This document shows positions 31,107 through 33,907 of a stretch of DNA of 46,735 bases, one piece after another. Origin of the DNA: Planctomycetia bacterium (GTDB lineage: Bacteria > Planctomycetota > Planctomycetia > Gemmatales > Gemmataceae); contig SYCV01000106.1 of assembly GCA_005786805.1 (NCBI GenBank), positions 1 through 46,735 of the forward strand, given 5' to 3'. The translations under genes and the position numbers were made by a program. Position 1 is the stretch's first letter. Each line of letters begins with the position of its first letter. The notes below the pieces were generated by a model. It saw nothing but the letters and a program-made list of their open reading frames with translations. It did no database searches and was not told the origin of the DNA.

Positions 31107-31754
31107 CTAAAGCAAAGGCCTGCGTTGAAGGTTTGAATCCTTTGAAGCGGGCCTTTTTTCTTTTTTTGCCCCACAAGTTCCGCAACCACCACTTTCACAA
31201 GACCCACAACCACCCGGCTTGGAATTGCAATTGGTCGATCCACAGGTTTCTCCGCAATTATTCGCGGAGTCCTCTTTAATTGTTTGGTTTTGACTTAAAT
31301 TTTCAACATATATGTGAAGTTTAAAATTGTCGGATAGACTTGAAATCAATTCCCCAAGGTCTTTTGTGGCTGGGTTGGTTGCAAGATGAATTACAGCATG
31401 TTTTTCATCAAGTAAAACCTCGGCATCCATGACCGATACATCCATCCCTGATGCGATGCAATACTCATTGGCGGCATTGATTAATTGAGTGGCTTTCAAT
31501 TGGATTTCATGGGGCCTGTGATCATCTGGGGAGAGGAGATCAAAAATTTTACCTACTGTGGAATTGGGGAGAAAGGTTGCGATGTTGGTGGTTGAGGGGG
31601 AAATGACTTCACCGATTTCCCGTCCCCTATGGGATTCAATTATTACAAGGTCACCCCTGGAAAGCTCGAGTGGTTTCTGGGAGCGAAACCTGCCGAAACC
31701 ACCCGTTTTTCCATAGCGGACCAAGTATTCCATTCGGGGACTTTCCATGTTCAC
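31107..31754 (-). CDS. PSP1-domain (RicT/YaaT-like) protein with cysteine-rich tail
   Basis: The 215-residue protein has the short PSP1 architecture: YLVRYGKTGGFGRFRS, then LSRGDLVIIESHRGREIGEV, then the C-terminal PSP1 region (about 85-155). RicT/YaaT of Bacillus belongs to this family and acts with partners in an Fe-S-carrying complex that affects RNA processing. Here the tail (167-194) packs seven cysteines (C167, 171, 176, 183, 186, 191, 194) in CxxxC, CxxC and CxxC spacings with many glycines, a likely metal or Fe-S site. The GTG start overlaps the stop of the upstream TPR-YggX gene by four bases (GTGA), so the two are translationally coupled. Confidence 0.82.
   Translation of the reverse strand: MNMESPRMEYLVRYGKTGGFGRFRSQKPLELSRGDLVIIESHRGREIGEVISPSTTNIATFLPNSTVGKIFDLLSPDDHRPHEIQLKATQLINAANEYCIASGMDVSVMDAEVLLDEKHAVIHLATNPATKDLGELISSLSDNFKLHIYVENLSQNQTIKEDSANNCGETCGSTNCNSKPGGCGSCESGGCGTCGAKKEKRPASKDSNLQRRPLL
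31114..31159 (+). terminator. Intrinsic terminator of metK inside the convergent gene's 3' end
   Basis: AAAGGCCTGC pairs with GCGGGCCTTT (one wobble), with seven more inner pairs (two G-U), a seven-base loop and a six-T run. It lies inside the last codons of the convergent PSP1 gene, whose tail must therefore encode it. Confidence 0.85.
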
Positions 31755-32380
31755 ACCTGTGGAAGTCCCAGAAATTCATGCATGTACTTGTCGTATTCGG
31801 ATTGTCCCCGCTCGGAACTGAGGTCAAGCCTGAGTTCATTGATAACCTTGATGCTGTAATTGCGAACCCAATCCGTCCAGCAGTCCGCGCAGATTGATTC
31901 GAAAATACGCTTTCCAAGATCATCGTTAAGGGGTGGAGCGGGTAGTTTTCTCGCTCTTGATCCAACCATGCAACCCGGCCTGGTGCATTGCATGTTTCCC
32001 GGGCCGGCCGAGGCGCCTCCCGTCACGGGGGGAGCTTGTTTTTTTGATTCAGGGACAGGTTCTCCCAGTTCCTTGAGCATCCTTGCCATCTCGTCACGGG
32101 GCATATTGTCGCCCCGTTCATCAGCAATTGTAAATCCTTTTTGAAGTGTGGTTATAGCGTCAGTTTTTTTATCAAGGGCCAGCAGGGAGGTTCCAAGAAG
32201 TTGAAATACTTTTGAAAATTGCGGGCTTAGTTCAAGAGTTCTGTTGAATGATGCGGCGGCTTTATCGAATTGTTTGTTTTCCATGTAGAGTTGGCCAAGC
32301 CGATAATGGCCTAGTTCGTTGTCGGGATCATCGTTGGCCATCTTTTGGAATTGCGCAATCCGGTTTTCTAAATCAGACAT
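31751..32380 (-). CDS. TPR protein fused to a YggX-like (Fe(II)-trafficking) domain
   Basis: The ATG at 32380 follows AGGAG; an in-frame start at 32473 gives an implausible 31-residue extension. The 209-residue protein has two or three tetratricopeptide repeats (residues about 5-105: GHYRLGQLYMENKQFDKAAASFNRTLELSPQ), a proline/glycine linker, and from about 130 a region matching YggX: LGKRIFESI, W-x-x-W, INELRLDL and HEFL in order. YggX protects Fe-S clusters and handles Fe(II). This copy has four cysteines, C132/C137 (CTRPGC) and C164/C167 (CADC), suggesting a bound metal. It couples to the PSP1-Cys gene and follows an exported-protein gene by 96 bases. Confidence 0.8.
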   Translation of the reverse strand: MSDLENRIAQFQKMANDDPDNELGHYRLGQLYMENKQFDKAAASFNRTLELSPQFSKVFQLLGTSLLALDKKTDAITTLQKGFTIADERGDNMPRDEMARMLKELGEPVPESKKQAPPVTGGASAGPGNMQCTRPGCMVGSRARKLPAPPLNDDLGKRIFESICADCWTDWVRNYSIKVINELRLDLSSERGQSEYDKYMHEFLGLPQV

Positions 32381-32476
32381 TATGAAAAACTCCTGGGTCT
32401 TTAATTGATGAAAATCAAGGGAAGGTCTGTCGACCCACCCTTTGATATTGTAAAGAACTATGAGTAAACGCAAAAA

Positions 32477-33286
32477 CTATTTGGGCTCAAGCACAAGAAA
32501 AGGTGTTTCCTGCTTGATGGTAGTTTTGGTCCTGGTCAGGTTGTCGGTTACCGAGGCCTCGATTCTGAACCTGCCCGGCCTGTTTGGCCTGATTGGAATT
32601 GAGACTGGGAAAATGTCCTTGAATTCCTCGGGTAGATCCTTGGCTTCCCCGGTGAATGGCTTGGACAAAGTTGGAATCCCGGCTTCATCGAGGATCCGCA
32701 CGGAAAAGGAAACATTTGGTTTTCTGGTTTGTGGATCGGTTGCAAATCCGGTCACACAAAATCTCAGGATAAACTCCTGGCCTGGCACCCCGACAGGAGG
32801 GGCGGGTAAATTATTCTCATAGGTCATATGCCATAAGACAAAACCCAGTGATTTTGGCAAAACCTCGAAAGATTGCGTCAGCAGGTTGGTTCTTTTATCG
32901 GTAAGATCCGTGAGGGTGAGCTTGTAAGTGTAGGTTCCCGCGGGCATTTCCAAGTTTATTGGGACTGCGGCGTATGCCGGCAATCTCGCTCCGCCCAGGG
33001 GATTAAAAGCTGCGGTTTCCTTGGGTGAGGTCTTTATGATGCTTTTGCCATCCTTGTCAAAAAGTTCACCTGCAAGACTGTAAAACGCCTGGCCGATAGC
33101 ATCCACCTTTAAGCCGTTGATATCAAATGCCAAAATGAAATTGTCGCCCGGATGATATTTCTTTGAGTCGGGCCTGTTGGCTCCGTAGATTCCCATTGGT
33201 GCGCGAATATTCAAGAACTCCAGTGGAGGAGTTGCCACCTGTTGACCGACTGTCATTAACGCCATGAATGCGAAAGTCTGCCACAT
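32477..33286 (-). CDS. Exported beta-sandwich-like protein of unknown function
   Basis: I start at ATG 33286 after GAGG (269 residues), which leaves a signal peptide MWQTFAFMALMTVGQQVA. The mature protein is strand-rich with two similar units: an N-terminal one with YHPGDNFILAFDINGL and AGTYTYKLTLTD, and a C-terminal one with GVPGQEFILRFCVTGF and PGRFRIEASVTDN. Both have the P-G-x-x-F-I-L-x-F and P-G-x-Y/F-x strand pattern, so they look like an internal duplication of an immunoglobulin-like sandwich. No catalytic residues are seen. It may be the first gene of a set with TPR-YggX and PSP1 downstream. Confidence 0.72.
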   Translation of the reverse strand: MWQTFAFMALMTVGQQVATPPLEFLNIRAPMGIYGANRPDSKKYHPGDNFILAFDINGLKVDAIGQAFYSLAGELFDKDGKSIIKTSPKETAAFNPLGGARLPAYAAVPINLEMPAGTYTYKLTLTDLTDKRTNLLTQSFEVLPKSLGFVLWHMTYENNLPAPPVGVPGQEFILRFCVTGFATDPQTRKPNVSFSVRILDEAGIPTLSKPFTGEAKDLPEEFKDIFPVSIPIRPNRPGRFRIEASVTDNLTRTKTTIKQETPFLVLEPK

Positions 33287-33406
33287 GCCTGTAACCTCTT
33301 GTCCTTTAAAATAAATTACACACATATTGTGTTCTGTTGGGTTGAAATATAGCTAGATCAGTTTTGATTTTCAAATCGTCAAAATGTAAAAATATTCCAA
33401 CATAAC

Positions 33407-33439
33407 TTGTCAAACCCCATATCCGGGTGTTATTAATAC
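33407..33439 (+). promoter_or_regulatory. Candidate promoter of the structured RNA
   Basis: A TTGTCA -35-like hexamer (33407-33412) and TATTAA (33431-33436) are 18 bases apart, just before the structured region that starts near 33444. The match to a sigma-70 pattern is modest. Confidence 0.35.
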
Positions 33440-33575
33440 ATATGTGTGCGGGTGGGACTAATCCATCGGCATACTCGGATCGCACTAGCGTGGTGTGATT
33501 TACAGAAGTCCTGAGTCAGGGCAACTGGGTTTAGCCCGGACAAAGGAATGTTCTAGCGAAAGGGAGGTGTTCAGA

Positions 33576-33608
33576 ATGTGTAAAAAGATCCAGGTAAGGC
33601 TGCTTTAA
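33576..33608 (+). CDS. Ten-residue mini-ORF in the structured RNA
   Basis: ATG at 33576 encodes MCKKIQVRLL and stops at TAA 33606-33608. A near-perfect ribosome site, AGGGAGGTG, lies six bases upstream, which is better than most real genes in this window. The last codons overlap the left arm of the next hairpin (GCTGCTT, 33599-33605), so a translating ribosome would open it, as in attenuator leaders. Whether the peptide itself matters is unknown. Confidence 0.35.
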   Translation: MCKKIQVRLL

Positions 33609-33648
33609 GGCGGCTGACGGGCTGCCCGTCAAAGCAGCTACGATAGAT

Positions 33649-33682
33649 AAGACCCCGGGCGTATCTACCCGGGGTCTTTGGT
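33649..33682 (+). terminator. GC-rich intrinsic terminator of the structured RNA
   Basis: AAGACCCCGGG pairs with CCCGGGGTCTT over 11 perfect bases around an eight-base loop, then TGGTTTT. The loop word TATCTA (33662-33667) is complementary to TAGATA (33644-33649) just before the stem, allowing a competing pairing. Confidence 0.8.
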
Positions 33683-33697
33683 TTTAATGGGGATGTT

Positions 33698-33907
33698 TCA
33701 GGATGCGGTGGCAAGGGGAGATTCCCCTGCACCCTTTTCAAGCAAAATTCTTTTGATCAGTTTTTCCTGATAGGAAAGAGTGTAGGATCCACATTGAGGG
33801 CATGGACAGGATTCCTGCCTTTGTTTTTCAAATATGGAATTATATTTGGGGACGTCCCAATTCTTCCCACAATCAGAACAAACAATACGGCTTTTAGAGA
33901 TACCCAT
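33698..33907 (-). CDS. Small zinc-ribbon protein
   Basis: The 69-residue protein has CSDCGKNW (residues 10-17) and CPCPQCGS (about 34-41), four or five cysteines in two knuckles that suit a structural zinc ribbon. The rest is a basic and hydrophobic C-terminal helix (QEKLIKRILLEKG). There is no signal peptide. Such single-ribbon proteins bind nucleic acid or partner proteins, but the role cannot be told. It has a ribosome site (GGTGG) and is convergent with the structured RNA terminator. Confidence 0.65.
   Translation of the reverse strand: MGISKSRIVCSDCGKNWDVPKYNSIFEKQRQESCPCPQCGSYTLSYQEKLIKRILLEKGAGESPLATAS

Follow-up and report, generated by a model that had tools for sequence, protein, structure and literature searches.

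The window analyzed here is the whole stretch of 46,735 nucleotides of contig SYCV01000106.1 (assembly GCA_005786805.1) from a Planctomycetia bacterium of the family Gemmataceae. Positions 33444-33682 of its plus strand lie between two ORFs, 32477-33325 and 33698-33907, both on the minus strand. This region was re-read, and its sequence, ORF, Shine-Dalgarno (SD) sequence, compound hairpin, and terminator were as first described. The arrangement set out in the earlier note, in which an SD leads the ORF MCKKIQVRLL into a compound hairpin followed by an 11-pair terminator between two minus-strand genes, is thus borne out by the sequence. The features are collected in Table 1. The predicted fold of the 249-nt stretch has an energy of -97.6 kcal/mol and beats 200/200 dinucleotide shuffles (z -4.2). 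The SD core ends six bases upstream of the ATG in the window copy. The extra 5' hairpin P0 differs in sequence in the other same-genus copies and falls outside the model match (33476-33685). The loop of P1 carries CGTGG, which is invariant across the 14 sequences of alignment A1. In the predicted fold, the alternative early hairpin holds the stop codon in its loop and is mutually exclusive with P3 and P4; we infer that it would serve as an alternative during transcription. The RNA is single-copy in its own genome, and a comparison with phage and plasmid DNA gave no match.

Table 1. Features of the RNA locus in the window.
Feature	Position	Strand	Basis or remark
Putative promoter, TTGTCA-18-TATTAAT	33407..33437	+	Read from sequence; fails consensus scan
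P0, extra 5' hairpin outside the family core	33444..33474	+	Fold
P1 hairpin (33479-33485 with 33493-33499)	33479..33499	+	Fold and covariation
P2 hairpin, large apical loop 33523-33533	33504..33554	+	Fold; alone z only -1.5
P2-loop half of pseudoknot (CTGGGTTT)	33525..33532	+	Pairs with ORF 33586-33593; permutation test
Extended SD, core AAGGGAGGTG at 33560-33569	33558..33573	+	Sequence, 16S pairing
Ten-codon ORF MCKKIQVRLL, ATG at 33576, stop TAA 33606-33608	33576..33608	+	
ORF half of pseudoknot (AGATCCAG)	33586..33593	+	Permutation test
P3/P4 compound hairpin	33598..33639	+	Fold -24.8 kcal/mol, z -2.9; helices 4 and 6 of covariation test
P3	33598-33606 with 33631-33639	+	Holds ORF end and first stop base
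P4	33609-33615 with 33620-33626	+	Fold
Alternative early hairpin (33598-33604 with 33609-33615)	33598..33615	+	Fold -9.1 kcal/mol, z -2.0
Putative intrinsic terminator, 11-bp stem 33649-33678 and T-rich tail	33649..33688	+	Terminator scan; helix 7

The two ends of the putative transcription unit were compared across loci, with single-base rather than dinucleotide shuffles as the control for the promoter, terminator, wide pseudoknot, and ORF tests. The promoter-like pair of the earlier note is visible in the sequence, but no plus-strand promoter in the window passes the consensus scan. Of the other same-genus copies, the four long enough to cover this stretch (L002-L005) show the pattern TTGTCA-18-TAT[TG]AAT. 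Promoter-like sites upstream of P1 are clearer in other members. Among 116 of the 117 loci (one was dropped for a short flank), 46 (39.7%) have a promoter-like site matching at least 9 of 12 positions, versus 2.3% of shuffles. The distance from the end of the best -10 box to P1 is 10-18 nt in 70/116 loci and 39-47 nt in the 17 Isosphaeraceae-type loci. Promoter scores are mostly poor in members outside the class, and five loci have no site. A terminator-like hairpin lies on the 3' side in 88/100 relatives' loci, versus 82/500 shuffled segments, counting a few loci (L071, L117, and L120) in which the script picks P3/P4 instead. The earlier note had also paired the terminator loop, TATCTA, with TAGATA just before the stem (33644-33649). 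This pairing is missing in all five other same-genus copies (L002-L006) and is therefore probably a chance match. The loop itself (window 33662-33667) reads TATCT in many loci of the window's own order and in L152, despite the changing stem.

No match at the gathering score was found in Rfam 15, either at the window or for 12 class members with their flanks. When E values up to 10 were allowed for the window, two poor matches appeared, ncr1015 and SCARNA7, both far under their gathering scores. A DNA search of 59 genomes, its own included, found the RNA in five of the six other same-genus genomes at 87-93% identity over most of its length; the genome without a match (G002) is 73% complete. Five other genera share a core corresponding to window 33550-33644 at E < 1e-6. 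Two covariance models were built, R1 on the fourteen sequences of A1 and the broader R2 on 44 members (alignment A5). With R1, the RNA was found in 70/95 genomes of the family (52/66 good ones), in 74/102 of the order, and in 249/397 of the class at E <= 0.1. Each genome of the family with a match has one copy, except one in which the RNA is split over two contigs. R2 raised the count for the class to 310/397 genomes, leaving 87/397 without a match. Across the phylum it matched 116/342 genomes, of which 72 lie outside the class. Weak matches with E around 0.01 could be spurious, and diverged copies may have been missed in the genomes that lack a match. Nine class genomes have two or three R2 matches, which are possible duplicates, and the remainder have one. 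In one genome, two R2 matches are adjacent (G422:C11:44961-45181) and may likewise be duplicates. The sequence GRCGGG in the P4 loop region, just 3' of the stop, is near-invariant in the 44 A5 members and recurs in the wider set. No description of this RNA was found in open-licence papers among the matches listed. The RNA is almost certainly a real family.

The earlier note had asked for compensatory changes in the stems, and the hairpins do covary. In A1, 92.3% of the cells are paired and 20/43 pairs show changes on both sides, which are distributed over the terminator (8), P1 (4), P2 (4), P3 (3), and P4 (1). P1 is paired in 100% of the cells, with both-sided changes at 4/7 pairs, and the two helices of P2 (helices 2 and 3 of the test) are 84-88% paired. 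The covariation score of A1 is 0.418, versus 0.234 for shuffles and at most 0.132 for slid structures; none of 500 shuffles reaches the real value on any of five covariation measures, the scored structure having been derived from the same alignment. The apical loop of P2 is complementary to codons in the middle of the ORF, and the two halves covary across families, with some G-U pairs. The loop/ORF pairs read CTGTTT/AAACAG in L010, TGATTGCCG/TGGCAATCA in L014, TTGGTAAT/GTTACCAA in L065, GCTGGTTAC/GTAGCCAGC in L103, GCTACAA/TTGTAGC in L161, TCCGGTTTG/TGAACCGGA in L152, and GGACTTC/GAAGTCC in L155. When each loop was scored with its own ORF versus permuted partners, the difference was large (z 7.7, 0/5000) for 99 of 101 members, two too-short ones being dropped, and it was similar for 38 representatives (z 7.3, 0/20,000 permutations). 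The narrow windows of these tests were chosen after the result of an earlier test with wider windows was known. That earlier test was weak (z 2.8, 23/5000), and its scores were 15.15 for the real ORF, 15.07 for the reversed ORF, and 13.88 for the shuffled ORF. The pseudoknot is only 4-5 bp in the Isosphaeraceae-type members, and the best pairing of the P2 loop is weak or located elsewhere in several members.

The reading frame was examined in 117 members (58 less the duplicate L001, plus 40, plus 20). By rule, an ORF follows the SD in 117/117, with a script count of 7-15 codons; the seven-codon calls (L161 and L163) result from a wrong choice of start, and both frames have 13 codons from a GTG five bases past the SD. 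The covariance models include the SD and start columns, so the presence of these two elements is partly built in, but the length of the frame and its stop are not. Since the ORF is open by definition, only its length, the place of its stop, and its rarity in shuffles count as evidence. The ORF rule is satisfied by 887/5850 shuffles of the 3' part (15%), and 1243/5850 shuffles yield 7-15 codons when the real start is kept. The 101 distinct ORFs are 8-15 codons long, start with GTG (71), ATG (15), or TTG (15), and stop at TAA (42), TGA (32), or TAG (27). Within the ORF span, stops occur in the +1 frame of 49/101 and the +2 frame of 91/101, which the recurrent TGTAGT explains in part. In our judgment, the frame is very probably translated. 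Chance structure in an intergenic region would be a hardly conceivable source of this RNA; in our view, it is refuted by the covariation, the distribution, and the ORF statistics.

If the frame is translated, the peptide itself could be the product, the RNA being the mRNA of a phylum-wide micro-peptide and the fold serving to stabilize it. The ORF in 117/117 members and local motifs within families, such as NQ-RL and SQRGG, agree with this idea, but the codons do not. The earlier note had proposed that conservation of the mini-ORF codons would support its reading; among 37 ten-codon ORFs, the codon-difference test gave no sign of selection on amino acids. Single-base codon differences fall at the three positions in the numbers 244/166/192, with no excess at the third, and 183/602 are synonymous (a raw count over overlapping pairs, without a neutral expectation). 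In addition, the frame has just 8 to 15 codons, the peptides of distant families are unlike one another, and the repeated residues are encoded in the part of the RNA that is constrained by P3 and the pseudoknot. The peptide as product was not favored after the codon test, and we consider it quite improbable. The suggestion of a dual-function sRNA with a functional peptide is also not supported, because the peptide shows no sign of conservation. The frame and its stop appear, from the sequence comparison, to be kept and the peptide not.

The SD is unusually strong. Of the 117 members, 113 match AAAGGAGGTG at 9 or more of its 10 bases, and the others match at 7 or 8. Further along, A or G stands at position 10 in 108/117 and C or T at position 12 in 115/117, and this variation preserves pairing with 16S rRNA through wobble. 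The pattern of the 16S tail gave no match in the window's own assembly, so the 16S 3' end seems to be missing there and the ends of relatives were substituted. Their 16S genes end in GGATCACCTCCTTTCT, and pairing was counted on these gene ends. At least 13 consecutive pairs with the 14-base tail GGATCACCTCCTTT are possible in 100/117 members, and in 102/117 when two further gene bases are allowed; the window copy is weaker, with 10 consecutive pairs. In 100 loci comprising 2,171,182 bases with both strands counted, 90 sites with at least 13 pairs lie in the RNAs and 4 elsewhere. The exact 13-mer GGATCACCTCCTT occurs in 20/24 genomes. Twelve places outside the RNAs were checked: nine are 16S ends, and the other three have no 16S match. 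For G007, G014, G092, and G606, one of the places corresponds to the RNA itself; the rest are 16S ends, save one in G014. Extended SDs are also known from initiation in S. aureus (PMC13009471). A further element, GGATCACC or a near form of it, lies 3' of the ORF in L103, L109, L136, L161, and L163, and less exactly in L110 and L166, all from other families of the class. It mimics the 16S 3' end and might base-pair with the SD of the same RNA.

The length of this complementarity, its concentration in the RNAs (90 sites versus 4 in 2.17 Mb of strand sequence), and the wobble-preserving changes at positions 10 and 12 would all fit an RNA that acts on the ribosome itself, as a decoy, a hibernation partner, or an RNA for maturation or quality check of the 16S 3' end. 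However, a pure decoy needs neither a start codon nor an in-frame stop, and the genus of the window reaches only 10 consecutive pairs. We regard this explanation as unlikely.

The genes around the RNA vary. Upstream and divergent from it, the window has a group consisting of 32477-33325, a TPR/Iron_traffic protein (31751-32473), and a PSP1-like protein (31107-31754), whose match is under Pfam's cut-off. This group, judged by its 282-aa protein, is kept in 20/40 own-order relatives' loci. The product of 31751-32473 (minus strand) combines TPR repeats with a bacterial Fe(2+) trafficking (Iron_traffic) domain in one protein, and it stands beside the PSP1-like protein and the unassigned 282-aa protein in roughly half of the loci from the own order. 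On the 3' side, a same-strand gene for DAHP synthase (aroF type) is found in 17/17 Isosphaeraceae-type (family f3) loci (L099-L102 and L119-L131) and in 10/41 own-order loci, window counted in (L070, L072, and L077-L084). From the match to the called start, the distance is 229-608 nt in the former and 99-390 nt in the latter. The gene caller was crude and composition-based; in L083 and L101 it missed or reversed the DAHP synthase gene that tblastn detects. No DAHP synthase was found within the flank examined in any of the 43 loci (23 + 20) of other families. Of the 53 loci without DAHP synthase, 35 have a convergent gene as the first one called on the 3' side, 17 have a same-strand gene there, and 1 has none. 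Since downstream and upstream genes differ between loci, the RNA travels without its neighbors and is no general cis leader. The earlier note had set the conservation of the region against that of its flanks; the RNA proved to be class- and phylum-wide and the neighbors to differ. Its reading as a stand-alone structured RNA therefore holds on the promoter- and terminator-like sites, the varying neighbors, and the covariation.

DAHP synthase catalyzes the first step of aromatic amino acid synthesis, and the RNA could have arisen as a cis attenuator of aroF that later became detached in other lineages, including the genus of the window. Its position ahead of aroF in all Isosphaeraceae-type loci and in 10/41 own-order loci, and the layout of an ORF plus a terminator, speak for this origin. 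On the other hand, the loci of the other families lack DAHP synthase in the flank, the RNA stands without it in 30/40 loci of own-order relatives and in the window, and terminator-like hairpins are present in loci without aroF too. No run of Trp, Phe, or Tyr codons was seen in the 101 distinct ORFs, and no conserved anti-terminator was seen. As a general reading, the aroF attenuator was dropped because DAHP synthase is confined to part of the loci, and the detached form seems to us rather improbable. The orphaned leader of the earlier note is possible in origin only; DAHP synthase lies downstream in the Isosphaeraceae-type loci and in some own-order loci, and in none of the 43 loci examined from other families.

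Our preferred reading is that the locus holds an autonomous RNA gene of ~200-240 nt that is gated by translation, following the logic of a leader peptide without a downstream gene, phylum-wide and nearly always single-copy; on the sequence comparisons, we give it about an even chance of being right. Its parts, namely its own transcription unit, the predicted P1-P2-P3/P4 fold, a long SD complementary to most of the free 16S 3' end, a frame of 7-15 codons ending in P3, and the pseudoknot, are supported by these comparisons. The combination of a strong SD and a tiny frame within the fold suggests an RNA that is switched by its translating ribosome. We infer from the modeled fold that translation would gate the structure and that the output would act in trans. 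In the proposed mechanism, the very long SD would capture a 30S subunit. Translation of the frame would melt the pseudoknot between the P2 loop and the ORF, and then P3. The terminating ribosome would leave a fold unlike that of the untranslated RNA, with the P2 loop and the P4/3' segments freed. The selected trait would be this fold switch, not the peptide, and the RNA could signal the capacity for initiation, or how far the ribosome has progressed, to a trans partner, which might be an mRNA, a protein, or the ribosome itself. A narrower and more tentative version is that of a phylum-wide housekeeping RNA gauging free, mature 30S subunits, in which a hybrid with most of the free 16S 3' end and a ten-codon test frame run by the captured ribosome would be followed by a refolding that signals success or failure; this is possible but doubtful.

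If true, a 30S-gauging RNA would form a ribosome-sensing class apart from tmRNA, 6S, and attenuators. It is rare for a structured RNA to occur about once per genome across a large part of a phylum and to have no Rfam entry. Selection seems to keep the reading frame rather than the peptide, together with the long complementarity to the 16S 3' end. The question raised is whether a free-standing RNA can use translation itself as its signal, and it is approachable in culturable planctomycetes.

Several known RNAs share features with the planctomycete RNA. The earlier note could not match the RNA to a known family, and this holds for the families of Rfam. Rhodopirellula-1, a published motif that has no Rfam entry, is listed in a table row for Proteobacteria and Planctomycetes, with 'y' in the second column and no Rfam accession (PMC2864571). 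The 'y' reportedly stands for cis-regulatory. Judged by this row, the two are alike in their occurrence in Planctomycetes and differ in that Rhodopirellula-1 is also given for Proteobacteria and is marked 'y'. No second paper naming it was found among the open-licence papers listed. The planctomycete RNA may overlap this motif. The Downstream-peptide motif/yfr6 (RF01704) of cyanobacteria is a structured RNA with a short conserved ORF, yfr6 being ~250 nt; only the 5' UTR motif is conserved, and the ORFs are typically 17-100 aa (PMC2864571). The likeness lies in a structured RNA tied to a short ORF, and the differences in the 7-15-codon ORF and the lack of an Rfam match here.

The planctomycete RNA also resembles two classes of RNA that combine a short ORF with structure. 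Dual-function sRNAs of the SgrS, RNAIII, and Spot 42 type are stand-alone RNAs with a short ORF and a terminator, as is the present RNA. They differ from it in having a functional, conserved peptide, of which no sign was found here, and the ORF lies within the RNA fold in the planctomycete RNA. tmRNA has a mini-ORF of about ten codons, pseudoknots, and a stop codon in a hairpin region. The planctomycete RNA shares a frame of about ten codons, a pseudoknot, and a stop in a hairpin region, but it has its own SD and start codon. Rfam (RF00023) gave no match at the locus, ARAGORN found no tRNA or tmRNA in the window, and a tmRNA over the cut-off sits on another contig of the same genome. Identity with tmRNA was dropped in view of this separate gene.

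Attenuator leader RNAs have a short ORF after an SD, with the ORF end or stop in competing hairpins, and an intrinsic terminator that releases a small RNA. In its predicted logic, the planctomycete RNA is closest to these leaders. An SD-led short ORF that overlaps mutually exclusive hairpins is present in the modeled fold, followed by a terminator, which would yield a small RNA. The leader-peptide-like layout pointed out in the earlier note is retained in this form, with the end of the ORF and the stop within P3, the P2 loop paired with mid-ORF codons, and the alternative hairpin bearing the stop in its loop. Unlike in attenuator leaders, no controlled gene follows on the same strand in the window, where both flanks are on the minus strand, and a shared downstream gene is limited to the Isosphaeraceae-type loci and some own-order loci. 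No run of regulatory codons for a sensed amino acid was seen in the 101 distinct ORFs. The extended 16S pairing and the pseudoknot that binds the ORF to an upstream loop are further differences. With regard to an anti-terminator, no conserved competitor of the final hairpin was seen, and TATCTA:TAGATA is not conserved. A leader RNA acting in trans is described for rnTrpL/peTrpL of Sinorhizobium meliloti (PMC7298713).
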